A DNA stretch of 64,000 nt from Myxococcales bacterium (GTDB taxonomy: Bacteria > Myxococcota_A > Polyangia > Polyangiales > Polyangiaceae), in contig CAHJWM010000002.1 in NCBI GenBank assembly GCA_903642325.1, positions 124,001 through 188,000 of the forward strand. Reading direction: 5' to 3'. How positions within the stretch are numbered: position 1 is the first letter of the stretch; the number at the start of each line of letters is the position of its first letter. The position numbers and the translations under genes were made by a program. Below, piece after piece: positions 14,776 through 51,113 of the stretch. Under the pieces are notes generated by a model, which was not told the DNA's origin, searched no databases, and saw only the letters and a program-made list of their open reading frames with translations.

Positions 14776-15316
14776 CCTTTTGTAGGACGCGTTGCCGGCG
14801 CATCAAGCCGTTCTGTAACGCGTTTGGCACTGCTTTGGGCAGTTCCTCTTTCTCATTGTCTGTGCTGGTATTGCCTAAAGGGGACGGCGAGCCGACCGCA
14901 CCGACTACGCCGCCCACCAACAACGCACCGAACCACTCGGCCCTACGGTGCCGCCTATTCGAAGCTGAACGGTCGGGCCAGACCCGCGCGGTTGCCGCCG
15001 CTGTCGGTAATAGGCTTGCGCGCAGGTTCAAAAGACGCTCTTGGCGCTTCGGTTAGTCGACTGGCCGACTTCCGCCATTGTCGCACAACGCGGGAGAGGG
15101 ACAGCAACTCCCTAATCAATGAACCGCTTCAAACTAATTCAGCTTCACGAAAGGAAGTAGTCCAATCCCGCTATGTTGTCGAATCAAAGCGGGTTAGGCC
15201 ATGGGCATGCAGTGATATCGCATCAATAGTCTGATTTTCATGTTGTCCCCACTCGGGTGTTGTGGCTTCACTCCCGGTAGGCGCATGTCCCACTTGCGCC
15301 GGAGTTGAGCTTTGAC
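14776..15316. other. Intergenic stretch without a recognisable gene
   Basis: About 540 bases. Several frames are open by chance, but products are low-complexity and start sites are poor. The last bases carry GGAG at 15301-15304 serving the next gene. Confidence 0.4.
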
Positions 15317-17476
15317 ATGTCCTCACTAAGTCGGCTTTTAGTAGTACCGCTTGCAGTGGCCGGCTTGGCCTTATCAATCTTTGCCGGCTGTAGCGATAGC
15401 GACGCCATCGGGACCGGCTCTTCGGATGCCGGCGCCGTCGCCGGCGCTGGAGGTGAAACACCATCCGGCGGCTCCGCCGCCATCGGGGGTGGCACGGGAG
15501 AAGCAGGGACCGGAGGGACGACGCCAGTCGTAGCGTCCTGCGACCCTGGGAGCAGCGGTTCCAAGTGTGCTCCCTGTAAGCCAGGAACGTACTGTGCTGG
15601 CGGGGAAGCCGAGCCAGTTCGATGCGAGCTCGGCACCTTCGATGACGATTTGGACGCGGCCACCCAGTGCGTTCTTCTAAGCGACTGTTCTGCCGGCACC
15701 TACCTCGTGAAGGATGGCACGGGGACGGCCAACCGCGTGTGCGGTAAGTGCACCACCGGAACCTTCTCGGTCGATAAAAACGCGCTGATCTGTCTGCAGT
15801 ACACCGCGTGCAACCCGGGTGCTTACGTGGCCACGCCCGGCAGCGCGACTTCGGATCAGACCTGTTCCGGTTGCGACTCCGGCACTTTCTCGACGCTCGC
15901 GAACGCGCCGGCCTGTGCGCCGTGGACAGACTGCCAGCCGGGCACGCACATCCTCAACAGGCCCAGCTCGAAGTTGGACCGCATTTGCGAGGCCTGCGCG
16001 GCGGGCATGAGCTCCACTATCCCGAATGTGTCTCAATGCGGACCGCCCCGCGCTTGCGCGCCCGGTACATACCAGATAGCGCCGGCTACGCAGGCGACGC
16101 CGCCGACTTGCGCGGCCTGCGTCAAAGGGAGCTCGTGCGTGGGTGGCGTTTCTCTCCCTATCGCGTGCGCCCAGGGCACCTGGGACGATGATGCGAACCC
16201 CGCTACCCCGTGCATCGACAAGACGACCTGCGTGGTCGGCACCTCCGTCGCCTCCGAAGGGGACACGCTGACCGACCGGGCGTGCGCAGCATGCACGCCC
16301 GGCACGTTCTCCTCGGCCGAGAACAGCTCGACCTGCACGCCTCAGATCATCTGCCCGGCAGGTACCCTGACGGCAGGTCCTGGCACGGCCACGACCCAAA
16401 CGGCCTGCGCCGAATGTGCATTTGGCAACTTCAACACGGCCTCGGCTTCTACGTCATGTAGCCCGTGGAAGGTCATGTGTGTGGCAGGTCAGTTCTCGAG
16501 CCCTCCCCCGTCGATCACGTACGACCGCAACTGTGTCTCGTGCACGCTTGGAACGAATTTTTCAACCGGCGCCAACGCAACCTCGTGCACTGCCGTAGCA
16601 ACGTGCGGCTTGGGCACCTATCAGGTGGCAGCGCCCACCGCGGCCAGCAACCGCACGTGCGCAAACTGCGCTCCGACCGTAGTCGGTACGCAGACCGTGC
16701 AGACCTACAACGCGACAACAATCAATGCGCCGACGAGCGCGGTGTGTATCCCCTACCCGACCAACTGCGTCGCTGGCCAGTACTCGAGCCCGGTCGCAAG
16801 CCTGTCGGTTGCCCCGATTTGTGTGCCTTGCCCGGCCGGTAAGTTCAGCGTGGCGACGGTCGGCACCGGAACGCCGACGCCCACGTTGGCGACAACCAAC
16901 ACGGTAGCAGAGTGCACTCCGTACACCGCTTGTACTGCCGGGCAATACGTCTCGACCGTGGGCACTTCGAGCACGAACCAGGTTTGCTCCAACTGCGCAA
17001 CGGGTACCTTCAATGCGGACACGGTCGATGCGCCCAACTGCACGCCTTATACGATGTGCACTGCCGGCCAGTACGCCTCTACCCAGCCGAGCACGACGGC
17101 CGCGCCAGTGTGCAGCGCGTGTCCTACGGGCACGTTCACTTCGGCCAGCAATACGGCACTCGCTTGCACCGTCTGGTCGACCTGCCTCCAAGGCACGTCC
17201 CAAACCGCCATTCCGACCGTCGTGTCCGATCGAATCTGCGCGGCGTGCGCGCCGGGCACATTCAGCAACGCGACCAACTCCGCGAGCTGCATGGCCTGCC
17301 CGACGGGTCAGTACACGAGCGCGTCGGGTTCGACGACTTGCATCGGGTTCTCGCCCTGCGCCGTCGACTTCTACGTGAGCACGGCCGGTACCCCCACCTC
17401 CGACCAAGTGTGCACGGCGTGCCCCGCCGGTCAGACTAGCCCAGGTGGCAGCGTAACCGCGTGTACGGTGACTTGA
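15317..17476 (+). CDS. Cysteine-rich (TNFR/ephrin-receptor-like, GCC2/GCC3) repeat lipoprotein
   Basis: A 719-residue surface lipoprotein. The signal peptide ends in FAGC (Cys about residue 25) and a Gly/Ala linker follows. Then come about a dozen Cys-rich units of the form CxxCxxGTFS...C...C.xGxY, for example CSGCDSGTFST and CAACAPGTFSN. They resemble eukaryotic GCC2/GCC3 and TNF-receptor repeats, stabilised by disulfides. Probably a stalk or adhesion protein outside the cell. The ATG at 15317 has GGAG 12 bases upstream; TTG at 15305 is possible but would overlap the Shine-Dalgarno sequence. The antisense strand is also open along much of it, a by-product of codon bias. Confidence 0.85.
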   Translation: MSSLSRLLVVPLAVAGLALSIFAGCSDSDAIGTGSSDAGAVAGAGGETPSGGSAAIGGGTGEAGTGGTTPVVASCDPGSSGSKCAPCKPGTYCAGGEAEPVRCELGTFDDDLDAATQCVLLSDCSAGTYLVKDGTGTANRVCGKCTTGTFSVDKNALICLQYTACNPGAYVATPGSATSDQTCSGCDSGTFSTLANAPACAPWTDCQPGTHILNRPSSKLDRICEACAAGMSSTIPNVSQCGPPRACAPGTYQIAPATQATPPTCAACVKGSSCVGGVSLPIACAQGTWDDDANPATPCIDKTTCVVGTSVASEGDTLTDRACAACTPGTFSSAENSSTCTPQIICPAGTLTAGPGTATTQTACAECAFGNFNTASASTSCSPWKVMCVAGQFSSPPPSITYDRNCVSCTLGTNFSTGANATSCTAVATCGLGTYQVAAPTAASNRTCANCAPTVVGTQTVQTYNATTINAPTSAVCIPYPTNCVAGQYSSPVASLSVAPICVPCPAGKFSVATVGTGTPTPTLATTNTVAECTPYTACTAGQYVSTVGTSSTNQVCSNCATGTFNADTVDAPNCTPYTMCTAGQYASTQPSTTAAPVCSACPTGTFTSASNTALACTVWSTCLQGTSQTAIPTVVSDRICAACAPGTFSNATNSASCMACPTGQYTSASGSTTCIGFSPCAVDFYVSTAGTPTSDQVCTACPAGQTSPGGSVTACTVT

Positions 17477-31718: not shown

Positions 31719-32807
31719 TCAACGGTTGCCGAAGATACCGGACAGCTCTTGCGCCGGAACCGTCTCGAGCTGCGCGTAATTGCATTGGGCGACGGGCTTA
31801 TCGGTACGAAAGCGTCTAAATTGCGCGGTGTGACGAAAACGGCCGCTCTGCATATGGTCATACGACACCTCGACCACGAGCTCAGGGCGAAGCGGCTCCC
31901 AGGACAAGTCTTTGCCTTGGCTCCAACGGCTCTTACCGCCGGGCATGCGCTGCTCTTTCGCGCCCATGCCAGGTAGAGAATCTTCGGCCCAAGCCCGCCA
32001 CGGGTGCGCGGCGAGCGCGTGCTCGCGATAAGGCTGGAGGAACGAGACGAGCTCGCGCCGCTTCTTGTCGGTGAAGCTCGCACACACGCCAACGTGCTGT
32101 AAATCGCCCGCGTCGTCGAATAGGCCTAACAGGAGGGAACCCACCGCTTCTCCCTCTCCTTTCTTGTGCCATCGAAAGCCCGCGATCACGCAGTCGCAGT
32201 CACGATCATGTTTGACCTTCAACATGACGCGTTTGTTCGGTTCATAAGCGCCATTGTTTGCTTTGGCCATGACGCCATCGAGGCCCGCCCCCTCGAAACG
32301 TTTGAACCAATCCGCAGCCACGCCGCGATCCGTCGTCGCCGGCGTCAGGAAAAGCGGCGGCCGGACATCCGCAAGCACCGTTTCGAGCCGCTTCCGGCGC
32401 GCCTGGTAGGGCTCTGAGCGCAGGTCTATAGCGCCCTCGCAAAGCAAATCGAAAAACACAATCGCCGCGGGGATCTCCACGGACAGAAGCTTCACGCGCG
32501 ACGCCGCTGGGTGCACGCGCAGCTGGAGTGCGTCGAAGTCGAGAGTCCCGCCCCTGGCAATCACGATCTCCCCGTCGCACACGCACCGCTCGGGAAGCTG
32601 CGCGCGAATGGGCTCGAGGAGCTCTGGGAAATAGCGGTTCAATGTCTTTTCGTCGCGGCTTTGCAGCAAGACCTCTTCGCCATCGCGAAAAATCAGCGTA
32701 CGAAAGCCGTCCCACTTCGGCTCGAAGGTCCAGTTGTCCCCGGCTGGCAATTGCTCCACACGCTTGGCCAGCATGGGCAAAATCGGTGGGTTGACGGCGA
32801 GCCGCAT
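31719..32807 (-). CDS. ATP-dependent DNA ligase (LigC/LigD-ligase type)
   Basis: A 362-residue ligase with an adenylation domain (nucleotide-binding Lys in EPKWDGFRTLIF; CDGEIVIARG; VFFDLLCEG; GLDGVMAKANNGAYEPNKR; MLKVKHDRDCDCV) followed by an OB-fold. This is the mycobacterial LigC-like layout, small and without a nuclease or polymerase domain. It would seal nicks with ATP in a second pathway beside NAD-dependent LigA. Its TTG at 32816 would overlap the GH13 stop (TTGA), but ATG at 32807 is more usual. Odd context: third gene of a trehalose/glucan operon. Confidence 0.88.
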   Translation of the reverse strand: MRLAVNPPILPMLAKRVEQLPAGDNWTFEPKWDGFRTLIFRDGEEVLLQSRDEKTLNRYFPELLEPIRAQLPERCVCDGEIVIARGGTLDFDALQLRVHPAASRVKLLSVEIPAAIVFFDLLCEGAIDLRSEPYQARRKRLETVLADVRPPLFLTPATTDRGVAADWFKRFEGAGLDGVMAKANNGAYEPNKRVMLKVKHDRDCDCVIAGFRWHKKGEGEAVGSLLLGLFDDAGDLQHVGVCASFTDKKRRELVSFLQPYREHALAAHPWRAWAEDSLPGMGAKEQRMPGGKSRWSQGKDLSWEPLRPELVVEVSYDHMQSGRFRHTAQFRRFRTDKPVAQCNYAQLETVPAQELSGIFGNR

Positions 32808-32812
32808 GGCAA

Positions 32813-34390
32813 TCAAGAGCCGTTCAAGAGAACGACCAAGCCGTCATCCCCCATGAGAGGGACCCGCTGGTTAATCGGCTCGCCTTCGCGCGCGCGGTCG
32901 GTCGCGACGACCACCGTGCCCACTGCGTCCCGCTGGCTGAAGAGGTGCGAGGAGTGTCCCAGGTTCAACACGATTAGGAAGCGACGCCCGTCCTGCTCTC
33001 GAATGTAAGACAGGACCTCCCCTTGCGTGGCGACCGGAGTGTAAGAGCCAGCATTGAGAGCAGGCTCCGCGCGCCGTAAGTCGATCAGACGGCGATACAG
33101 GCCGAGCATCGAATCGGGATCCTGTTGCTCCACGGCCACGTTACAGCGCGCATGTTCCATGGACACCGGCAGCCAGGGTTTTCCTGTCGTAAAACCTGCG
33201 CCCCGGCCAGCGGACCATTGCATCGGGGTTCGCTGCGGGTCGCGGCTCAGTCCCACGTTCTTGCCTTGCGGGTCTTCCGCTTCCTCTGGCGTGATGACCC
33301 CGTCTCGCATGCCGATCTCGTCGCCGTAGTAATGGGTGGGCGTACCGCGCAGGGTCATCAAAAGCAGCGCCGCCACGCGCGCCTGAGCGAGGCCAACGCG
33401 GCTGGCGATGCGTGGCTGGTCGTGATTGCCGAGCACCCAATTTGGCCAGGCATTGAGCGGCAGCGCGCCCTCGTACTCGCTGACCGCCGCCGCGATTTGC
33501 GTCGCGCTCCAGGGCAGGGTCACGAGCTGAAAGTTGAACGGTAAATGCGCGCCGTCTTGCGCAGCACCGTAGTAGCTAACGAGGCGATGGATGGGCAAGT
33601 AGACCTCGCCGATCAATACTCGCTCGGAATAACGGTCGAGCAGAGCGCGCATCTCGCGCACTATTTCGTGCACCTCGGGTTGGTCGGTCGAGTAGACAGG
33701 TAAGAGCGAGTTGTACGGGGTCTGCCCGCTTACGTAATCCGGGTTTTGGGGATTGTCGCGGTAGGTTCCGTCTTTGATCAAGTGCCACAGCACATCCACG
33801 CGAAAGCCGTCCACCCCGCGATCCAGCCAAAACTGTAGAGCGCCGTACATGGCCGCGCGCACCTCCCGGTTGCGCCAGTTCAGGTCCGGCTGCTCTTTCA
33901 AGAATGCGTGGCAATAGTACTGCTGGGTTTCGGGGTCCCAGGTCCAGCCCGGCCCTCCGAAGACGCTGAGCCAATTGTTCGGCGGCGAGCCGTCGGGTTT
34001 CGGATCGGCCCAGAGATACCAGTCACGTTTAGGGTTCGTGCGAGAGCTGCGCGACTCCAAGAACCACGGATGCTGGTTCGAAGTGTGGTTGGGCACGAAG
34101 TCCAAGATAATCTTGATCCCGCGCTGGTGCGCCGCTTCGATCAAAGCGTCCATATCCGCCAACGTGCCGAACAAGGGATGGATATCGACGTAGTTGGCGA
34201 CGTCATACCCGTGGTCGGCCATCGGCGATGGGAAGACGGGAGACACCCAAATTGCATCGATACCCAGCCATTGTAGATAATCGAGTTTGGCGTGAATGCC
34301 CGGCAGGTCGCCAATGCCATCCCCATTGGAGTCCGCGTACGAGCGCGGATACACCTGATAGACAATGCCTTTTTGCCACCACAAGGTCAT
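32813..34390 (-). CDS. GH13 alpha-glucosidase family hydrolase
   Basis: A 525-residue (beta/alpha)8 enzyme. Region I is FVPNHTSNQHPW, region II GVDGFRVDVLWH with the nucleophile Asp, region III LIGEVYLP with the acid/base Glu and region IV VLGNHDQPR with the third Asp. YPRSYADSNGDGIGDLPGI near the N-terminus is typical of oligo-1,6-glucosidase/alpha-glucosidase subfamilies. No signal peptide, so it acts in the cytoplasm on maltooligosaccharides or isomaltose-type ends. The ATG at 34390 overlaps the treZ stop (ATGA). Confidence 0.85.
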   Translation of the reverse strand: MTLWWQKGIVYQVYPRSYADSNGDGIGDLPGIHAKLDYLQWLGIDAIWVSPVFPSPMADHGYDVANYVDIHPLFGTLADMDALIEAAHQRGIKIILDFVPNHTSNQHPWFLESRSSRTNPKRDWYLWADPKPDGSPPNNWLSVFGGPGWTWDPETQQYYCHAFLKEQPDLNWRNREVRAAMYGALQFWLDRGVDGFRVDVLWHLIKDGTYRDNPQNPDYVSGQTPYNSLLPVYSTDQPEVHEIVREMRALLDRYSERVLIGEVYLPIHRLVSYYGAAQDGAHLPFNFQLVTLPWSATQIAAAVSEYEGALPLNAWPNWVLGNHDQPRIASRVGLAQARVAALLLMTLRGTPTHYYGDEIGMRDGVITPEEAEDPQGKNVGLSRDPQRTPMQWSAGRGAGFTTGKPWLPVSMEHARCNVAVEQQDPDSMLGLYRRLIDLRRAEPALNAGSYTPVATQGEVLSYIREQDGRRFLIVLNLGHSSHLFSQRDAVGTVVVATDRAREGEPINQRVPLMGDDGLVVLLNGS

Positions 34391-38305: not shown

Positions 38306-39514
38306 CTAACGGCGCGAAGGTTCACGACCATTCGCCGTACGCAAGGCGGGGGCCAGATCCATTGGGGGGGGCACGTTGGATTCTCTCATCGCGATCCCAA
38401 ATTTCGACATCCGGTAACGAATTTGGTCTCTAGTCAGACCCAGCAACGCCGCGGCGCGAGTTTGATTGTTCTCCGCGAGGCGGAGGGCTTGCACCAGCAC
38501 GTCGCGTTCCAGCTCGGCCAAATCGATGCCGGCAAGTGGCAGCCGAAAATCGATTCCGGTTTGCGTCAGCTGAAATGGCGGTAAATCCTCGGCTTCGACC
38601 GCGCCGTGCTCGCCGCTCAGGCCGCACCGCTCGACCAAGTGACATAGCTCACGCACATTGCCAGGCCAGTCGTGGTCCCGCAGTTTCCGCAGTGCGCCTT
38701 CGCTGAATCTAAGCGGCTTCGCCCCGTAGCGGCTCGCGGTATTTTGCGCGAAGTGTGCGGCGAGCGGGGCGATATCCTCCGCGCGGTCGCGCAGCGGCGG
38801 GATCTCGAGCACGAATGGAAAGCGATATGCAAGCTCCGGACGGACGAAACCATCACGCGCGGCGCGACCAAGATCTCTGCTCGAGGAGGCAACGAGGCGC
38901 ACCGAACGCGCCGACTCGTTGACATCGCGAAGCAGGCGCAAAATATTGGCCTGAACGTCAGGTGACGTCTCGCCGATCTCATGCACGTAGATCGTCGTTC
39001 CAACGCCCGCCAAGAGCTCACGACGCGCACTCGTTGCATCGAGTATTTTTGCGATTTTTGCGTGCGCATTCGCGGCCTCCAAGATCACGAACTCGCCGTC
39101 TGGATAGGTCGAGTCGTGCAGCGCTTTGGCGACGTGGCGCTTTCCCGTGCCAGTCTCACCCCGCAGAAGCAGCGCGGCGCGCGGCTTGGCCGCAAGCTGG
39201 CCAATCGTGGAGGCCAAACGCGCCGCCGGCTCGCTAGTCCCGATCAGCGCGGCGGGAGTCGTCGCGTGCCGACTGCTCGCCGACGAGGGGGCTTCACGCC
39301 ACGCTTGCCGAACGCGATCGATGAATTCGTCGAACGTGAAGGGCGCGCTGACCTCACCTGAAACGTCTGCGCACAAGACCGCCGCTTGCGGCCGAAGGTC
39401 GTCGACGCGCTCCGCGAATACCTTCGTCGTACAAATCTCGTAGCCTTGCTTGGCCAAGCACTCGATGATCTCGGTCGTTTCTGGCTGAGTGCCCACGACC
39501 AGCGCGCGTTTCAT
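38306..39514 (-). CDS. Degenerate NtrC-family (sigma-54 type) AAA+ regulator
   Basis: A 402-residue protein with a short receiver-like N-terminus (RALVVGTQPETTEIIE) lacking a clear phosphoacceptor, then an AAA+ domain and a Fis-type helix-turn-helix (NNQTRAAALLGLTRDQIRYR). The Walker A is GETGTGKRHVAKAL, with Arg where the family has Glu. The GAFTGA loop that contacts sigma-54 is missing entirely, and the Walker B reads IYVHEIGE, with His replacing the catalytic Asp. It probably cannot drive sigma-54 open-complex formation and may act as a repressor or with sigma-70. Start ATG 39514 begins the homologous part. Confidence 0.85.
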   Translation of the reverse strand: MKRALVVGTQPETTEIIECLAKQGYEICTTKVFAERVDDLRPQAAVLCADVSGEVSAPFTFDEFIDRVRQAWREAPSSASSRHATTPAALIGTSEPAARLASTIGQLAAKPRAALLLRGETGTGKRHVAKALHDSTYPDGEFVILEAANAHAKIAKILDATSARRELLAGVGTTIYVHEIGETSPDVQANILRLLRDVNESARSVRLVASSSRDLGRAARDGFVRPELAYRFPFVLEIPPLRDRAEDIAPLAAHFAQNTASRYGAKPLRFSEGALRKLRDHDWPGNVRELCHLVERCGLSGEHGAVEAEDLPPFQLTQTGIDFRLPLAGIDLAELERDVLVQALRLAENNQTRAAALLGLTRDQIRYRMSKFGIAMRESNVPPPMDLAPALRTANGREPSRR

Positions 39515-39672
39515 GACACCTCCGACGACGCTGGGACACGGCGCGCCTGCCCGACCATGGTGCACGCGCCATGCCCGGGGTTGCGTGGAGCGCGCACTCA
39601 AGGCGCAACACGCGGCTGTCGTTCGTCGAGTAGAGCAGGGCGGCCCTGCTCCACTTGCCTACGTCGTCCGTC

Positions 39673-42093
39673 TCAGAGCCCTGGCGGATCCATTTCCCGC
39701 TCGTGATGGCGGTGCCGCGCAATGGCCTTGATGAAGTCGGGCAGCGCCTTGGCGGCCGCATCGTACTTGCCCACGAGCATGCCCGGGTCGGGACTGCCCG
39801 AGGGTAGCAAAGTGGGCGCGCCCGCCGTTTGAAGCAACGAGGCAGCGTCGCTCAGAGCCAAAATGGGCTTTGCGTGTCGATATTGATCTTTGATGAACTC
39901 GAGCACGTGCCCGAGACTGGCGAGGGTGGCCAGCGCTGCTTTGCCGCCGGGTATGGCGAGCGCATCGAAGACCACCGAGGGCATGGTTTCCAGCGTGGCT
40001 TCGACTTCGATTCGGTCGCCGGTTTCCGAGCTGACGCTGCCCAATCGGGCCCCGACATAGCGAGGAACCGCGCCCTGTTCGGTCAAGCCGACATGTAAGG
40101 CGCGCGCGGCCTCGCCGTCCACACCATTGGCGACCAAAATCGCAATGCGGCGAGTAGCAATGCTGCCATCACCTGGGTGAGCCATCAAGGAGAGCGCCGG
40201 CGACACTTCCACTTCCGGTTTCGTCACGCTCTTCAGCACCTTCGGGGCGGGCTTCGGCATATCCATGCCGAGCTCGATGGCGAGCTTGCGAGCCAGGCCG
40301 GAATCCACGTTGGCCAGGATCGATACCATGCGTTCCCGGATGGCGGGCGTCTGCACTTTGGTCAGCTCGAAGCGAAACCCACGTAGGATGTGGGCCTTCT
40401 CGACCGCGCTTTGACTGTTGAAAAAGAGCGTGGCCTGCGTGTAGTGGTCAGCAAAGCGCTCCGGCTTTCCGCGCACCTTGTCGTCCTCGATGTGCTCGCG
40501 GAAGGAAGTGAAACCTGCCGCACCGGCTTGGAACGGGCAGCCCCCACCCAGCGAATTCGGCTCGTAGGATACCCGTCCTCGGTTAATCGCCTGGCGGTGC
40601 AGGCCGTCCCGTTGATTGTTATGGGTCTGAACAATCGGGGCGTTGATCGGAATCTCGTGGAAGTTTGGGCCGCCCAAACGGGAAATCTGCGTGTCGACGT
40701 AGGAATGAATGCGGCCGGCCAATAGCGGGTCATTCGAGAAGTCCAGACCAGGAACGATGTGCGCCGTACAAAACGCCACTTGCTCTGTCTCGGCGAAAAA
40801 GTTGTCGGGGTTGCGATTGAGCACCATCTTACCCACCGGCGTCAGCGGCACGAGCTCCTCCGGCACTAGCTTCGTCGAGTCCAGTATGTCGAAGCTGAAA
40901 CCTTCGGCCTGCTTTTCCGAAAACATCTGGAAGCTGAGCTCCCACTCTGGGAATGCACCCGCCTCGATCGCCTCCCACAGGTCTCGGCGATGAAAGTCGG
41001 CGTCGGCACCCGCCAGTTTGACGGCCTCGTCCCAATCCAGTGAGTGAGTGCCGGCAACCGGCCGCCAATGAAACTTCACGAACGTCGCTTTGCCTTGCTC
41101 GTTGACTAGACGGAACGTGTGCACGCCAAAGCCCTGCATCATGCGGTAACTGCGCGGCAGAGCGCGATCCGACATGATCCACATCAGCATGTGCACCGAC
41201 TCCGGCATCAGCGAGACGAAATCCCAAAATGTATCGTGCGCGGTCGCCGCTTGCGGGATGCCCATATGCGGCTCGGGCTTCGCGGCGTGGATCAAGTCCG
41301 GAAACTTCATCGCGTCTTGAATGAAGAACACGGGGATGTTGTTGCCCACCAAATCCCAGTTGCCTTCGTCGGTATAGAATTTCACGGCGAAACCGCGCAC
41401 GTCTCGCGCGGTGTCGACCGAGCCGCGCTCGCCCGCAACCGTCGAGAAACGGACGAAGACCGGCGTTCGCTTGCCCGCTTCCGCAAACAGCGATGCCCGC
41501 GTCACGTTCGTCATGGGCTTGTAGCATTCGAAATAACCATGGGCCCCGGAGCCACGAGCATGGACGATGCGCTCCGGAATGCGTTCGTGATCGAAGTGAG
41601 TGATCTTCTCGCGGAGGACGAAGTCCTCGAGCAGTGCGGGCCCGCGGAGACCTGCCTTGAGTGAGCTCTGATTGTCCGAGACCGGCACGCCCTGGTTGGT
41701 CGTGAGCACGCGGTCGCTGGCATCGGTCCGCACGCGGTCGAGCGGCAGCACGCCTGGGTTTACGCCGAGGTTTGGCTTGCCAGCACCCACTTTTGCCGAA
41801 GCCGTCTGCTCCGTCAGCGTGCTGCCCGTGACGCTGGGGCTCGCAGGCTTTGCGGTTGCGCCGGTCTGGGGTTTGGCGGTGGCCTTGCCGTACTCACCGG
41901 CCTTGTTCGGATTGAAGGGCATGGCGGCGACCAACTCTTCGGTGCCTGCCATCTTTTCAGCGAGCGCGTCGGAAGAGCCGCGCTTGCTGCCTCGCGCGGG
42001 ACCGCTAACGGTGGAACGCGCGCTTGTGGTCGAGCCGGAAGCTGGGTCGCTCTTGGCGAGGGGCTTTCCGTCAAAAGGTTTCTTGGCGGCCAT
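39673..42093 (-). CDS. katE: Large-subunit (clade 2, KatE/HPII-type) catalase
   Basis: An 806-residue heme catalase. An Ala/Ser/Lys-rich N-terminal extension (about 1-130) precedes the core: distal His in RIVHARGSGAHGYFE, the heme-binding region RFSTVAGERGS, and proximal Tyr in RIHSYVDTQISRLGGPNF. The C-terminal 150 residues form the flavodoxin/DJ-1-like domain unique to large catalases (RRIAILVANGVDGE). Where E. coli HPII has His392, cross-linked to the heme Tyr, this protein has Cys (AFCTAHIVPG). Destroys H2O2 in the cytoplasm. Divergent from the CBM48-GH13 gene. Confidence 0.93.
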   Translation of the reverse strand: MAAKKPFDGKPLAKSDPASGSTTSARSTVSGPARGSKRGSSDALAEKMAGTEELVAAMPFNPNKAGEYGKATAKPQTGATAKPASPSVTGSTLTEQTASAKVGAGKPNLGVNPGVLPLDRVRTDASDRVLTTNQGVPVSDNQSSLKAGLRGPALLEDFVLREKITHFDHERIPERIVHARGSGAHGYFECYKPMTNVTRASLFAEAGKRTPVFVRFSTVAGERGSVDTARDVRGFAVKFYTDEGNWDLVGNNIPVFFIQDAMKFPDLIHAAKPEPHMGIPQAATAHDTFWDFVSLMPESVHMLMWIMSDRALPRSYRMMQGFGVHTFRLVNEQGKATFVKFHWRPVAGTHSLDWDEAVKLAGADADFHRRDLWEAIEAGAFPEWELSFQMFSEKQAEGFSFDILDSTKLVPEELVPLTPVGKMVLNRNPDNFFAETEQVAFCTAHIVPGLDFSNDPLLAGRIHSYVDTQISRLGGPNFHEIPINAPIVQTHNNQRDGLHRQAINRGRVSYEPNSLGGGCPFQAGAAGFTSFREHIEDDKVRGKPERFADHYTQATLFFNSQSAVEKAHILRGFRFELTKVQTPAIRERMVSILANVDSGLARKLAIELGMDMPKPAPKVLKSVTKPEVEVSPALSLMAHPGDGSIATRRIAILVANGVDGEAARALHVGLTEQGAVPRYVGARLGSVSSETGDRIEVEATLETMPSVVFDALAIPGGKAALATLASLGHVLEFIKDQYRHAKPILALSDAASLLQTAGAPTLLPSGSPDPGMLVGKYDAAAKALPDFIKAIARHRHHEREMDPPGL

Positions 42094-42473
42094 TGGGAAG
42101 GACTCCGTTTCAACGTGTGAGCTGAGAAGTGGAAATGAGATCGAACGTGAACGACGCGCGAAGGCGTCTCCGGCTCGACGGGTGGCGGGATACTGCACGG
42201 GATCAAACAAAGCCGACAACGAATAAAGGGCGCGGCCATCGATTTACTAGCTGGGGCGTGTTGCACCAACGAGGCTGATTGCGACGTACGGAGCGGCTAA
42301 TGCTCTGTTTCGCTATGCTCATTCTGTGACGTCTGTAGCGCTGTTTAGCCTTGGTCTAAGTTTGGCCGGGGCGGTGAGTGGGCCGTCTAATTACAAGCTA
42401 GAAGCGACGCGCGCCGGTCGAAATTTGTTCGCAAGACCCGCGACGGGTGTGAGAAAGTCCCGACCCAAGTCGC
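42094..42473. other. Divergent intergenic region
   Basis: About 380 bases between the catalase and the GH13 gene. It must hold both promoters; I see no clear operator, repeat or terminator. Confidence 0.4.
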
Positions 42474-44894
42474 ATGAGCCAAGTCGTCAAGTTCGTTTAT
42501 GACACCGGAATTCGCAGAAAACTTTTTCATAATGTCCGCCTGCGCGGCACTTGGGATCCGAAGGGAAAGCTCAGCCAAGCTTGGGCAGAGAGCCCGATGC
42601 GCGAGGTCGCCGGTCCCGACGGCGCATGGACGTACGAGGCCCATGTCGAGCTCGAAGAGAACGAGCGCGGCAAAGAGTTCATGTGGAGTGTGCTTCATGA
42701 CGGGCCGCTCGGGCTCGACCGACAAGGCGTCGTCAACGAACAGCGAGGGGAAGGCCACGAAGCTCTCCATCGCACCTTCACGCTGACGGCTGGCGTCGAT
42801 GAGCAGCGCTACTACCTGACGCACGTGCGTCGCTTGGGCGCTCGTAAGGTGCGGATACCCGGCGGCGATGGATGCGGCCTGCGCTTCGCCGTGTGGGCAC
42901 CCAATGCGCAGTCGGTCGAGGTCGTGTTCGGCGACCCGAGGCACGGGTACATCGCCGACGACGGCACCGGCATCGACCCGCAGCGGCCAGTGATCGAGCT
43001 CGAGAGGACAGAAGACGGAGTATGGATCGCCGAACCCGGTAAACACCCCGAATTGGCGCGCTTCGAAGACTTCGCCGGAGCGCCTTACATGTACCGGATC
43101 CGCCAGCAAGACGGCGAGCTCGCCTACCGGACGGACTTGCATTCGCGCGCGCAGCTCGGCACCGGCGACGCGAATCCGGAAGGCGCGGCGTACGCCGGCA
43201 CCCCCGCCGACTTGAACGGCGTGGTGGGTTGCTCTTTAGTCGTCGACACGGAGGTCGTGCAGCCGCACTTGGTGCCGAAGGCCGACGACGTCCCGATCCC
43301 GGAGGACGAATTTTGGCGCGACGAGTTCAATCACGCAACGCCGTTCCCGCACCGCATCGACGACATGGTGATCTACGAGCTCCACGTCGGCTCCTTGGGC
43401 TTCGGCGAGGATCGTCCGGGCAACCTAGATGACGCCATTGCGTTGCTCGATTATCTCGGCGCCCTCGGCGTCAACGCCATCGAGCTTTTGCCCATCGCGG
43501 AGGCCAGCGGCACGAAGACCTGGGGCTACGGCAACTCTCACCACTTCGCGATCGAGTCGAGCGCAGGCGGCCGCGATAAGTTCCGGCACTTCGTGCGCGC
43601 CTGTCATCAGCGCGGCATCGCCGTGATCGTGGACGTAGTGTACAATCACTACGTGCCCAACGGCGAGCGAGCACAGTGGCACTACGACTCGCTGCGCGAG
43701 GAAAACAACATCTATTACTGGTACGAGGGCAATCCGAGCGATTACCCTGCGCCGGACGGGGGCTACCTCGACAACCTCTCGACGGGCTTTGCGCCGCGCT
43801 TTCACGAAGAGATGGTGCGCAAGCTCTTCATCAGCAGCGCGGTCGCCCTGGTGATCGACTTTCACGTCGACGGATTTCGAGTCGATCAGACCACGTCTAT
43901 CCACGCGTACAACGTCGTCCACGCGGACGGCCGCGCGGCGGGAGCCGCGAATCATGAAGGCGCGAAGTTTCTGCGTGAGCTGAGCCGAACGCTGCGGCTC
44001 ATCCGCCCGACCACGCTGCTCACGTGTGAGGATCACTCGGACTGGGTGCTCGTCACCGAGCACCCAGACGGCGCGGGCCTCGGCTTCGATGCCACGTGGT
44101 ACTCGAACTTTTATCACAACCTGATCGGCGACACCGGCCGCGGAGCGGAGTGCGCCAACTTGCTCAAGACCGCCGGCATGGGCGGGGATGGTGAGCTCGC
44201 GATGGATCGCTTTGCGGAGACGTTGGCGGCCACGGGCCGCAAGACCGTCGTCTATCACGAGTCGCACGATGAAGCGGGGAATTCCGAGCATTCGGGGCGC
44301 ACGCTGATGGTCGCCATCGCCGCGGACAAGGACACGCCACCGCCCACGGGCGAGCTGAGGAAAATTGCCGAGGCGCGCGTCCATTTCGTTGCCGGCATGA
44401 CCCTGCTTTCAGCTGGTACGCCCATGTTTCTGATGGGCGAGGAAATCGGTGCGCTCAAGGATTTCAAGTACGACGCTTTCCTCGAAAACCGGGAGGACTT
44501 GCACGGTGAGCGTAAGGGTGCGGGCAAACAGCTGTTTCGTTTCTATGGCGACCTGATCCGGTTGCGTCGGCGTCATCACACGCTCTCGACCGCCAACATC
44601 GAGATCACTCAGGTTCACAATGCCGATCGCGTGCTGGTGTTCCACCGTTGGAAGGGTCCGGAGCATTACTTGGTCGCGTCCACTTTGAGTGACGCGGGCT
44701 ATCCCGAGGGCTACGAGGTCAAGACACCCGTCGTTGCCACCGGCACCTGGCGTGAAATCTTCAACAGCGACGCCCTCGCCTACGGCGGAGCTGGAGTCAG
44801 CAACCAACATTCGCTCGAGGCCAACGACGGCATCCTCACGCTCAAGCTTCCGGCCCGAGGCTTCGTCGTCCTTCGCCACCTGCCGAGGAGCTGA
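42474..44894 (+). CDS. CBM48-containing GH13 alpha-glucan enzyme (branching-enzyme-like)
   Basis: An 806-residue enzyme. A first beta domain (1-110) and a CBM48-like domain (about 125-260, LRFAVWAPNAQSVEVVFG) precede the barrel. Catalytic regions: DVVYNHYVPNG, HVDGFRVDQTTS (nucleophile Asp), LLTCEDHSDW (Glu) and VYHESHDEAGNS. The SHDE form of region IV is as in branching enzymes, unlike NHDQ of hydrolases. Its stop overlaps the glgB start by one base (TGATG), so both act on the same glucan. It may be a second branching or transferase activity; exact reaction uncertain. Confidence 0.85.
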   Translation: MSQVVKFVYDTGIRRKLFHNVRLRGTWDPKGKLSQAWAESPMREVAGPDGAWTYEAHVELEENERGKEFMWSVLHDGPLGLDRQGVVNEQRGEGHEALHRTFTLTAGVDEQRYYLTHVRRLGARKVRIPGGDGCGLRFAVWAPNAQSVEVVFGDPRHGYIADDGTGIDPQRPVIELERTEDGVWIAEPGKHPELARFEDFAGAPYMYRIRQQDGELAYRTDLHSRAQLGTGDANPEGAAYAGTPADLNGVVGCSLVVDTEVVQPHLVPKADDVPIPEDEFWRDEFNHATPFPHRIDDMVIYELHVGSLGFGEDRPGNLDDAIALLDYLGALGVNAIELLPIAEASGTKTWGYGNSHHFAIESSAGGRDKFRHFVRACHQRGIAVIVDVVYNHYVPNGERAQWHYDSLREENNIYYWYEGNPSDYPAPDGGYLDNLSTGFAPRFHEEMVRKLFISSAVALVIDFHVDGFRVDQTTSIHAYNVVHADGRAAGAANHEGAKFLRELSRTLRLIRPTTLLTCEDHSDWVLVTEHPDGAGLGFDATWYSNFYHNLIGDTGRGAECANLLKTAGMGGDGELAMDRFAETLAATGRKTVVYHESHDEAGNSEHSGRTLMVAIAADKDTPPPTGELRKIAEARVHFVAGMTLLSAGTPMFLMGEEIGALKDFKYDAFLENREDLHGERKGAGKQLFRFYGDLIRLRRRHHTLSTANIEITQVHNADRVLVFHRWKGPEHYLVASTLSDAGYPEGYEVKTPVVATGTWREIFNSDALAYGGAGVSNQHSLEANDGILTLKLPARGFVVLRHLPRS

Positions 44895-48002: not shown

Positions 48003-49754
48003 TCAAACCTGGGTTGCGTGACTTGCTTTGGGCGCCATAACCCACGCGGAGAGCTGTTCTGCGGGCCACGTATTCGGCACCCGACTTGGGTCGACCCAAG
48101 CCCGCTCTGCGTTCAGCGCCGCGAACTCGACCAAGGCTAACTCGCGGGTGTGATGGGCGTCGCTCGTCAGCATGAAATGAACGCCCTGTTCGCGAGCCTG
48201 GCGCAGCACATCGACCGAGCAATCGAGCCTCGGCAGCGCGCCATTGACCTCGAGCACGGTACCAGTCGCCCTCGCCACTTGGAACACCTCGTTCAAGTCG
48301 AGTGGAATGGGGGGGCGTCCGCCGATCATGCGCGCCGTCAAATGGCCGATCATCCGCACACTCGGATCACGCATGGCCTGGACCACACGTGCGGTCTGAG
48401 CGGCGGCGTCCAGCTCGAAGTGCGAGTGGACGGACGCCACGCACCAGTCGAAGCTCCGCCGAAATTCGAGGTCGTAATCGAGCTCCCCGCTCGGACCGAT
48501 ATTCAACTCCACGCCGTGCAATAACCGTAGCGAGCCGCCGAGCTCGTTTTGCAGTGCTCGTATCCGCGCTCGCTGCTCGAGCAGCGTTGCGCGGTCTACG
48601 CCGGAGAGCGTCCCCTCGGCATGGTCGGTGATGGTCAGCACGCCATAGCCTCGCTCCCGAGCCGCGCTCACCATCTCCTCCAAAGGCGAGCGACCATCAC
48701 CCGAAACGCTGGTGTGCACGTGAAAATCACCGCTGAGCGGGCCCATGGGTCGCGGCAGCTCCCTCACCGCCGCCGCTTCGATCTCGCCCGTGTCCTCGCG
48801 TAGAACGGGCGGAACGAACACCAGGCCCAAAGCCTCGTAGATTTCCGCCTCGCTCTCGCTGGCCACGACTTTGCCAGACGCCGAGTCCGTCAACGCGTAC
48901 TCGTTCAGCGTCCAACCGCGCGCCAGGGCGCGTTGCCGCAACTTGATGTTGTGGCTCTTCGAGCCCGTGAAATAGATCATGGCGGCACCGAGCTGTTCGG
49001 GGACGACCACGCGCACGTCGACCTGGATGCCGCGCTTGGTCACGACGCTGGTTTTGGTGTCGCCACGAGCGAGCACTCGCTCCACCAAGTTGAGGCTGAC
49101 GAGCGCTTCCATCACGGGACCGGCTGCCCGCGCGGCAATCAGCAGATCGATGTCGCCGACCGTCTCCTGAAAGCGGCGGAGCGATCCACAATGAGCGGCA
49201 GAGCTCACGCCTGGCACCGCGCGCAGCTCAGCCAACACTCGCTCGGCGTGCGGCAAAGCCACCGAGAGCGGGCTGCGTTCGAGCGGCCCCTGCTCTTCGA
49301 GTCGGGTCAGCGCTTGACCCAGCTTCTCCTCGGATTTTTCGCCGAAGCCCTTTAGGCCGCGCAATTGTTTGAGTGTCAGCGCTCGCCGCAAATCCTCGAT
49401 CCCCGCCACGCCGAGCTCGGCCCTCAGGCGCAGCACGGCCTTTGGCCCGAGGCCTTGGATTCGAAGCAAAGTGCGCAATTGGCGAGGATATTTTTCGCGC
49501 AACACCTCCAGCTTCTGAACCCTACCCGTGTCCACCAACTCCAAAATCTTGTCGGCTGTACTCTTGCCGATGCCCGAGATCTTCTGCAGATCCTTCCGCG
49601 AGAGGCGGCCTAAATCGGTCGCTTGGCTCGCGATCGCTTGTGAGGCATTTTCGTAAGCGCGCACGCGAAACGATGGCGCGCCGCCTTCGTCCAGAGTCGT
49701 CAGCTCGGCAAGCTCGCGGAGCATGTCCAAGACGTCCTGTTTGGTGTCGGACAT
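48003..49754 (-). CDS. polX: Family X DNA polymerase / PHP 3'-5' exonuclease
   Basis: A 583-residue bacterial PolX. N-terminal helix-hairpin-helix repeats (KISGIGKSTADKI, RIQGLGPKAVLRL) precede the nucleotidyl transferase palm with GSLRRFQETVGDIDLLI (metal Asp pair) and VDVRVV (third Asp). The C-terminal PHP nuclease shows GDFHVHTSVSGDG, LTITDHAEG, CVASVHSHF and LTSDAHHTREL. It fills short gaps in repair. Several PHP positions differ slightly from the usual (IGHLT for IGHPT), so nuclease activity may be altered. Divergent from the PolDom gene with only 69 bases between. Confidence 0.92.
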   Translation of the reverse strand: MSDTKQDVLDMLRELAELTTLDEGGAPSFRVRAYENASQAIASQATDLGRLSRKDLQKISGIGKSTADKILELVDTGRVQKLEVLREKYPRQLRTLLRIQGLGPKAVLRLRAELGVAGIEDLRRALTLKQLRGLKGFGEKSEEKLGQALTRLEEQGPLERSPLSVALPHAERVLAELRAVPGVSSAAHCGSLRRFQETVGDIDLLIAARAAGPVMEALVSLNLVERVLARGDTKTSVVTKRGIQVDVRVVVPEQLGAAMIYFTGSKSHNIKLRQRALARGWTLNEYALTDSASGKVVASESEAEIYEALGLVFVPPVLREDTGEIEAAAVRELPRPMGPLSGDFHVHTSVSGDGRSPLEEMVSAARERGYGVLTITDHAEGTLSGVDRATLLEQRARIRALQNELGGSLRLLHGVELNIGPSGELDYDLEFRRSFDWCVASVHSHFELDAAAQTARVVQAMRDPSVRMIGHLTARMIGGRPPIPLDLNEVFQVARATGTVLEVNGALPRLDCSVDVLRQAREQGVHFMLTSDAHHTRELALVEFAALNAERAWVDPSRVPNTWPAEQLSAWVMAPKASHATQV

Positions 49755-49823: not shown

Positions 49824-51113
49824 GTGGCCAGAGACGAAGGCGCGGTAACGCTCACGATTGGCGGTCGAGACGTGCAAGTCACGCACCCTGAAAAGCTCTA
49901 CTTCTCGAAGCAGCAAAAGATCATGAAGCTGCAGGTCGTGCAGTATTACTTGAGCGTGGCGGAAGGCGCCCTTCAAGGCATTCGAGCACGGCCGATCGTG
50001 CTGAAGCGCTTCGTAGATGGCGCCGAGGCCGCGCCGTTTTATCAAAAGCGCGCCCCCGACAAGCGGCCCGCCTGGCTACGCAGCGTAACGCTGGCCTTTC
50101 CGTCCGGCCGAACCGCACAAGAGGTCGTGGTGGACGACGCGGCCGGGCTCGGCTGGATCGTGAATCTCGGATGTCTCGAGCTTCACCCGCACCCCGTGCG
50201 CAGCACAGACCTAGACCATCCTGACGAGCTCCGCGTCGATCTCGATCCCGGCCCGGGCGTATCCTGGGAGGACGTGCGGCGCGTCGCACTGGAGGTGAAA
50301 GCCGTGCTGGAGGAGCATGGGCTCAAAGGCTTTCCAAAGACCAGTGGCTCGCGCGGAATCCACATCAACGCGCGCCTTGAGCCGCGTTGGGGCTTCAGCG
50401 AGGTGCGGCGCGCCGCGCTCGCGTTATCGCGCGAGGTCGAGCGCCGGGTGCCGAAGCTTGCTACCTCCAAGTGGTGGAAAGAAGAGCGTCATGGCGTCTT
50501 CTTGGACTACAATCAAAATGCCAAGGATCGGACCACGTGCTCGGCATACTCGATCCGACCGCTGCCTGACGCGCGTGTCTCGGCGCCGCTCACCTGGTCG
50601 GAGGTACCGGACTGTAATCCGGCGGACTTCAACCTGTTTACGCTACCCAAGCGCTTCTCCGAGATCGGTGATCCACATTCCGATATGGATCGCTACGCGG
50701 GCTCGCTCGACGCGCTCCTAGAGCTTGCGGCTCGGGATGAAGCGGCGGGCCTCGGTGACGCCCCCTGGCCTCCGCACTTCCGAAAAGAAAAAGGCGAAGC
50801 GCCTCGCGTCGCGCCGTCACGAGCCGCTAGCCCAACCAAGAGCAGCGCAAGCCCAAGCAAGAAACCGCGCGCCAAAGCGCCGCTCTTGGTGGTGGCCAAG
50901 TCGAGCGACAAGGAGTCCGCGCTCGCCGGCCTCGAACGCTGGCTTCAGGCGCACGCAGAAGCGGCCAAACACTTAGCCGTCGATGACATTCTAGTCGACT
51001 CGATGCGCGGGCGATCATCGACTTGGACGCGCATCCGCGTGAATCTGCGTCATGTCCCGGAGGCGACACGCCCCGCCCCGGGCAAGCCGGACCCCGACGA
51101 CGCGCCCAAATAA
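49824..51113 (+). CDS. LigD-type polymerase domain (PolDom, primase-polymerase) protein
   Basis: A 429-residue protein. The first 300 residues are the archaeo-eukaryotic primase-like polymerase found in LigD: THPEKLYF start, DELRVDLDPGPG (catalytic DxD), SGSRGIHIN (His) and FLDYNQNAKDRTTCSAYSIR. After that come a Lys/Ala/Pro-rich linker and a short C-terminal helical-strand domain. No ligase or nuclease domain is fused, unlike full LigD. It starts with GTG at 49824. Likely adds nucleotides at broken ends in non-homologous end joining, with a separate ligase such as the one at 31719. Confidence 0.9.
   Translation: MARDEGAVTLTIGGRDVQVTHPEKLYFSKQQKIMKLQVVQYYLSVAEGALQGIRARPIVLKRFVDGAEAAPFYQKRAPDKRPAWLRSVTLAFPSGRTAQEVVVDDAAGLGWIVNLGCLELHPHPVRSTDLDHPDELRVDLDPGPGVSWEDVRRVALEVKAVLEEHGLKGFPKTSGSRGIHINARLEPRWGFSEVRRAALALSREVERRVPKLATSKWWKEERHGVFLDYNQNAKDRTTCSAYSIRPLPDARVSAPLTWSEVPDCNPADFNLFTLPKRFSEIGDPHSDMDRYAGSLDALLELAARDEAAGLGDAPWPPHFRKEKGEAPRVAPSRAASPTKSSASPSKKPRAKAPLLVVAKSSDKESALAGLERWLQAHAEAAKHLAVDDILVDSMRGRSSTWTRIRVNLRHVPEATRPAPGKPDPDDAPK

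Follow-up and report, generated by a model that had tools for sequence, protein, structure and literature searches.

The window analyzed here, a 64,000-nucleotide stretch of DNA from a Myxococcales bacterium, encodes a 402-aa protein at 38306–39514 on the minus strand, with its start ATG at 39514, a GGAGG just 5′ of that ATG, and a stop ending at 38306. Pfam places the protein among NtrC-like regulators, with matches to the AAA lid (71.2 bits), Sigma54_activ_2 (PF14532, 54.0 bits), and Sigma54_activat (PF00158, 50.2 bits), of which the last two exceed their curated cut-offs. The C-terminal HTH_8 match, at 44.8 bits against a cut-off of 22, identifies a Fis-family helix-turn-helix (HTH). The frame is open, with a third-position GC content of 0.70 compared to 0.72–0.79 in several neighbors. 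The features of the gene and its surroundings are as follows.

38306..39514, minus strand: NtrC-like regulator without the sigma54-contact loop, 402 aa (ORF, Pfam, GGAGG ahead of ATG)
39293..39514, minus strand: receiver remnant, residues 1–74 (Pfam, alignment to the relative in genome G004, pLDDT, residues read by eye)
38561..39262, minus strand: AAA+ core and lid, residues 85–318 (Pfam, AlphaFold model, FlrC 6luf Z 22.5)
39137..39160, minus strand: Walker A GETGTGKR, kept (sequence, alignment)
38999..39079, minus strand: site of the L1 truncation, where GAFTGA is lost and 12 residues are missing (alignment, spacing)
38975..38995, minus strand: Walker B TIYVHEI, with His replacing Asp and the catalytic Glu retained (alignment, spacing)
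38897..38923, minus strand: place of the shortened L2/pre-sensor I loop, 8 residues fewer (alignment, spacing)
38822..38842, minus strand: arginine-finger segment RPELAYR, both Arg kept (alignment columns)
38645..38668, minus strand: sensor II WPGNVREL, kept (alignment)
38393..38521, minus strand: Fis-type HTH, residues 332–374 (Pfam HTH_8, 64–80% identity to five clade members)
39629..39655, no strand assigned: 27-bp near-perfect inverted repeat with 13-nt arms and a 1-nt spacer, lying between the stop of catalase and the start of the regulator, a candidate terminator-like stem or operator (inverted-repeat listing)
39673..42219, minus strand: long catalase, neighbor (neighborhood annotation)

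In the family of sigma54-dependent enhancer-binding proteins (bEBPs), the L1 (GAFTGA) and L2 loops face the ring pore. An earlier note on this DNA had described the sigma-54 contact loop as missing, and this is borne out by alignment: the window protein contains no GAFTGA-like, FTG, or ELFG string, and the spacing from the Walker A Lys to the Walker B Asp position is 53 residues, compared to 64–66 in all 44 aligned relatives (65, 64, and 66 in 40, 2, and 2 of them, respectively). The spacing from the Walker B Asp position to sensor I is 33 residues, compared to 41 in 44/44 relatives. These 12- and 8-residue deficits, which fall in the L1 and L2 (pre-sensor I) regions, respectively, therefore indicate that both pore loops have been cut down. 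The Walker B segment reads TIYVHEIGE, with His at a column that is Asp in 44/44 relatives and with the Glu kept, as the same note had reported (VHEIGE). That note was also right that the DNA-binding domain and Walker A are kept. Among the features of an active bEBP, the protein thus lacks a GAFTGA-type L1, an L2 of canonical length, and an hhhhDE Walker B, and it possesses Walker A (GxxGxGK), the catalytic Glu, sensor II, both Arg fingers (Arg at both columns in 44/44 relatives as well), and, in the predicted model, the AAA+ fold of the family.

The note had named a GAFTGA or Walker B Asp that is shifted but present as the finding that would overturn its reading. Alignment reveals neither, and the spacing shows true deletions. 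Across 38881–39140, GAFTGA is likewise absent from the two alternative frames of the coding strand. An assembly slip is an unlikely cause of the lost motif because relatives also show reduced spacing.

The lesion is larger than the earlier note described, extending to the L2 deficit and to the receiver. No Response_reg match is listed by Pfam at E ≤ 1 for the window protein. Residues 1–74 align to parts of a receiver, with part of the fold missing and the best agreement to the G004 relative, whose own receiver is barely above the Pfam cut-off (30.8 vs 30.2 bits). Read by eye in that alignment, G-T-Q occupies the place of the acidic pair, and the phospho-Asp position has a residue other than Asp; the acidic pair, Asp, and Lys that define the phosphorylatable receiver of a response regulator are thus not found as a set. 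In the AlphaFold2 model, block pLDDT is 55–77 across residues 1–70. Ordinary phosphorylation of this domain appears unlikely, since the acidic pair and phospho-Asp are lost and the model is of low confidence there. With L1 and L2 shortened, the Walker B Asp lost, and the receiver degenerate, the sequence gives good support to the view that classic sigma54 activation, which the note had called impossible, is ruled out in practice. Sigma54 itself is encoded in the genome, but the protein is missing the elements known to engage it.

The AlphaFold2 model, built with 45 alignment rows, shows a confident AAA+ core, with block means of at least 88 over residues 91–280 apart from a dip to 66–80 over residues 141–170, the place of the L1 deletion. 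Residues 85–319 superimpose on single domains of FlrC, FleQ, NtrC1, LuxO, ZraR, and VpsR in VIA-align with Z scores of 21.5–22.5 and rmsd values of 2.5–2.8 Å over approximately 225 residues, whereas structural alignments that take in further domains give an rmsd of at least 11 Å. FlrC (6luf) yields Z 22.5 and 2.5 Å over 225 residues, and the GAFTGA-less VpsR (7v2b) yields Z 21.5 and 2.7 Å over 225 residues. In prediction, the AAA+ fold stands without both loops.

A search of the genome with PF00158 returned 34 matches: 25 at 197–251 bits, six weak ones at 22–28 bits, and, between these groups, outliers of 119, 58, and 48 bits, of which the lowest is the window gene. The same genome carries a loopless paralogue on contig C18 (own18), which is 45% identical in a protein search and has no receiver match at all. 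Altogether, six such genes were found in five of the eight genomes of the genus, namely, the window gene, own18, and one each in G003, G004, G005, and G007; G001, G002, and G006 (95, 84, and 98% complete, respectively) yielded none of this kind. All six have open frames. The Walker A-to-B spacing is 53 residues in the window protein and own18, 45 in G003 and G007, 61 in G004, and 41 in G005, and the Walker B pair reads HE, HD, PS, PS, GE, and GD in the window protein, own18, G003, G007, G004, and G005, respectively, so the Asp is absent in 6/6 members. The Walker A Lys is present in five members and is Arg in G005. Both finger Arg residues stand at the aligned columns in the window protein alone; the other five members each lack one (the G005 row is poorly aligned). 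The G004 protein has a nearly full-length AAA+ domain with an unrecognizable loop motif.

In a tree of 52 rows, from which the loop columns were omitted, the six members form one clade with support of 98/97. G005 branches first and G004 next, with long branches for G005 (1.43 changes per column) and own18 (1.11). Because G005 is the most eroded member and branches first, the losses must be partly parallel across branches. The G003 and G004 genes look like one locus at two stages, as both adjoin a convergent methyltransferase-like gene (66% identical); these two loci also share glycosyltransferase genes.

We extended the search to 183 genomes of the order, scoring 10–18 candidates per genome. 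The best match outside the genus reached 210 bits, compared to 568–614 bits for the four members used to build the model, 285 for G004, and 191 for G005. Eight out-of-genus matches outrank G005, and members as eroded as G005 could therefore hide outside the genus. Seven out-of-genus loci (L210–L216) all retain a GAFTGA-like motif (GAFTDA in five, GSYTGA and GAFTGA in one each) and a DE Walker B. Among the nearest canonical relatives from outside the genus are proteins that carry GAFTDA and whose HTH shares up to 28/40 residues with that of the window protein. A scan for related loci used short peptide patterns of the window protein, keeping the best 80 of 428, and matches below 60 bits to the canonical model were excluded before GAFTGA motifs were counted. 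By this count, 45 of 193 rows fail the strict GAFTGA pattern, many as small variants (GAFTDA, GAFSGA) and three as fragments; the motif is lost or badly changed in 12 rows (L026, L027, L028, which is the window gene, L032, L033, L034, L050, L080, L119, L141, L150, and L153). Two of these, L050 (G029) and L153 (G066), form another GAFTGA-less pair, whose receiver looks intact. This pair sits apart from the window clade on the tree, and GAFTGA losses thus recur.

Divergence within the clade is unevenly distributed along the protein. In 14 of the 15 clade pairs, an HTH identity of 0.56–0.80 accompanies an AAA+ identity of only 0.20–0.40 (pairs involving G005 rest on 88–94 columns), and none of the 103–330 canonical pairs at like HTH identity has an AAA+ identity so low. 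Canonical pairs with an HTH identity of 0.7–0.8 have a mean AAA+ identity of 0.72, and no tabulated pair falls below 0.37. The canonical set comprised 175 rows selected by a looser pattern that admits GAFTDA, giving 14,875 non-independent pairs, 14,418 of them in tabulated bins; for one GAFTDA protein, sigma54 binding itself is described as doubtful (PMC10714721). The fifteenth clade pair, G003/G007, has an AAA+ identity of 0.72, as expected.

Among five members (G005 left out), all 10 pairs show a smaller pN/pS for the HTH than for the AAA+ domain, with dS mostly saturated. For G003/G007, dN/dS is 0.22 in the AAA+ domain and 0.12 in the HTH, rough values given that dS is near 1. Twelve canonical pairs span AAA+ dN/dS values of 0.016–0.284, one of them above the 0.22 of G003/G007, and AAA+/HTH dN ratios of 0.52–3.39, within which the G003/G007 ratio of 2.0 falls. 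The low AAA+ identities across the clade, set beside a G003/G007 dN/dS in the canonical range, suggest that the AAA+ domain changed fast at the origin of the family and has been under ordinary selection since, and would thus be neither a canonical engine nor debris.

The catalase gene adjoins the regulator on the same strand, as the earlier note had stated, with the regulator start 158 nt downstream of the catalase stop. A role at catalase has no backing apart from this adjacency: among the ORFs picked in 19 kb at each of the other five clade loci (5.9 kb in G004), no catalase homologue was found (0/5), and no shared operator emerged. Palindromic half-sites of 4–6 nt in the upstream regions of the six members (178 nt for G004) were shared by at most 2/6 members for 4-mers, which 97 of 100 shuffled sets matched, and longer half-sites were common to none. 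The exact 19-base palindrome core of the inverted repeat at 39629–39655 occurs once in the genome, with two further copies carrying 2 mismatches; none of the inverted repeats listed for 42180–42520 corresponds to this repeat. Scans for promoters and terminators gave about as many hits as shuffled sequence (1 vs a mean of 1.0 and 6 vs 5.9, respectively).

No gene besides the regulator was common to all clade loci among ORFs picked by a simple rule, part of which were scanned against Pfam. Homologues of hemerythrin and DUF72 occur at both the window and the G007 locus, with an SDR gene in each. The window holds catalase, hemerythrin, DUF72, a LigD primase-polymerase, a DNA ligase, and trehalose/glycogen-type enzymes, with some of these families also at the G007 locus, an assemblage at most suggestive of a stress island.

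Two further observations concern the window itself. An ATP-dependent DNA ligase (31719–32816), a PolX-like polymerase (48003–49754), and a LigD primase-polymerase (49824–51113) are separate genes flanking the trehalose/catalase block. A 723-aa frame at 15305–17476 on the plus strand contains cysteine-rich TNFR_c6-like repeats, with the best stretch near its C-terminal end.

We consider the window protein to be most probably a sigma54-independent DNA-binding regulator, more likely a repressor, that uses its AAA+ domain as a scaffold (probability roughly 0.58), a reading that draws on sequence, the predicted model, and analogy. Its ancestor would have been a sigma54 activator of the receiver–AAA+–Fis type. 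Since the HTH is held, DNA binding is the probable job of the protein, and it may bind an operator as a dimer or oligomer through this conserved Fis-type HTH. The AAA+ core would serve as an assembly scaffold, possibly still binding ATP, as the kept Walker A, Glu, Arg fingers, and sensor II allow, and hardly hydrolyzing it. Action would be at sigma70-type promoters, where occlusion (repression) seems more likely than activation.

The earlier note had offered a repressor, a decoy, or an ATP-binding switch. An ATP- or ligand-sensing switch, in which DNA binding is gated by ATP or another nucleotide bound to an AAA+ domain that lacks the Walker B Asp, is unlikely in our assessment. The retention of the Walker A Lys in five of six members speaks for it, as do the predicted fold near FleQ and VpsR, two proteins that bind c-di-GMP, and published precedents (PMC10274813 and PMC10714721), but G005 has lost the Lys, and an ATP switch is thus possible without being required. 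ATP binding may even be dispensable in the clade, given the Lys-to-Arg change in G005 and the five members that are each short of one finger Arg. Less probable again is a decoy or dominant-negative protein that occupies the enhancers of a canonical sigma54 activator or joins and poisons its ring. Such a role could draw on the kept HTH and assembly-facing elements (Arg fingers, lid) in a genome with 25 strong bEBP matches. Here the suggestion of the note fares poorly, as 42% (over 38 columns) is the highest HTH identity that any canonical own-genome protein in the comparison reaches, against 80% for the loopless paralogue, and the listed canonical proteins of this genome align at approximately 36%, which makes co-assembly doubtful.

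A dedicated regulator of the adjacent catalase gene, repressor or activator, is somewhat less probable still. Strand and proximity favor it, along with the hemerythrin, DUF72, LigD-type, and trehalose/glycogen genes in the window; the other five loci without a catalase homologue among their picked ORFs, the lack of a palindrome common to the six upstream regions, and the unmatched repeat at 39629–39655 count against it. The least probable reading is that of a gene in decay, with its function lost and heading to a pseudogene. Erosion of the receiver, L1, L2, and Walker B is what decay would produce, as is an AAA+ domain that diverges more than in canonical pairs. Against this stand the open frame with near-neighbor third-position GC, an HTH that remains 64–80% identical to those of the other five members, all of them open frames, and the G003/G007 AAA+ dN/dS inside the canonical range.

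The preferred reading, a sigma54-independent regulator with a scaffold-like AAA+ domain, has close parallels. Loss of GAFTGA together with sigma54-independence is already known in other bacteria: PMC3162934 lists TyrR, DhaR, HupR, VpsR, and YplP as having lost the motif with sigma54 dependence and counts approximately 110 homologues with minor deviations. The window protein, a bEBP-type AAA+ domain plus a Fis HTH without GAFTGA, fits the pattern of these TyrR/HupR/VpsR/RcNtrC-type relatives. According to PMC10274813, the NtrC proteins of Rhodobacter capsulatus and Caulobacter resemble it in having REC–AAA+–HTH architecture with an L1 deletion that removes GAFTGA, and differ in that their receiver Asp matters for activation; the window protein additionally lacks the receiver function residues, the L2 length, and the Walker B Asp. 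The same source describes R. capsulatus NtrC, in which the L1 deletion is larger, as acting at sigma70 promoters and depending on the binding of ATP rather than on its hydrolysis, and VpsR as independent of ATP. Caulobacter NtrC is tied there to both repression and activation at sigma70 promoters, and it may repress by competing with CtrA. Caulobacter NtrC has no GAFTGA, yet growth on ammonium depends on the Walker A Lys and Walker B Asp of this protein (PMC10274813), and loop loss alone therefore need not make hydrolysis useless.

VpsR of Vibrio cholerae shares the AAA+ fold (Z 21.5) and is presented as GAFTGA-less and sigma54-independent in sections of PMC10274813 and PMC3162934, but it binds c-di-GMP (PMC10714721, in part) and keeps its receiver Asp (PMC10274813, in part), whereas the receiver of the window protein is a remnant. 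TyrR, DhaR, and HupR are likewise traced to sigma54 activators through change or loss of GAFTGA in PMC3162934, and TyrR differs by its ACT and PAS domains in front (PMC6375630, in part).

The window HTH matches Fis in PDB 1etw (E 8e-4), and the NCBIfam Fis model scores 29 bits, below its cut-off of 99. Fis is not known to have an AAA+ domain. Fis originated from an NtrC-type C-terminus, and the N-terminal make-up of DhaR and HupR differs from that of the window protein. What appears new, at the level of sequence, is that the receiver, L1, L2, and the Walker B Asp are lost jointly while the HTH is conserved, and that proteins of this kind form a clade within a single genus. A literature search found no publications on this clade, which has no name and hence is not searchable by name.

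A tentative and rather doubtful proposal is that the genus shows graded stages from a sigma54 motor to a plain DNA-binding protein, with one HTH type throughout. G004 has an AAA+ domain of nearly full length that has lost its loop motif and the Walker B Asp; in the window protein, the loops are cut and the Walker B Asp is lost; in own18, the receiver is gone; in G003 and G007, both the Walker B Asp and Glu are lost; and in G005, the Walker A Lys is lost. Erosion would have proceeded in parallel branches and not along one ladder, as G005 and then G004 are the first to diverge in the tree. If true, these stages would document in natural variants the way in which AAA+ activators can give rise to Fis-like architectural or repressor proteins, with the eroded AAA+ domain kept as a scaffold and not as an engine. 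If the preferred reading is right, the clade would also make it possible to ask which bEBP parts matter once sigma54 is given up, and its natural variants would separate DNA binding and assembly from ATP hydrolysis.

These results highlight that a sigma54-domain match alone misleads: four bEBP-like genes in this genome (the window gene, own18, L026, and L027) lack a usable GAFTGA. The last two lie approximately 4 kb apart in the same genome (G000 contig C6, 62416 and 66740) and are damaged in both GAFTGA and Walker B, with GA-DGA and LFFSEI in L026 and NEVEVS and LCLREV in L027.
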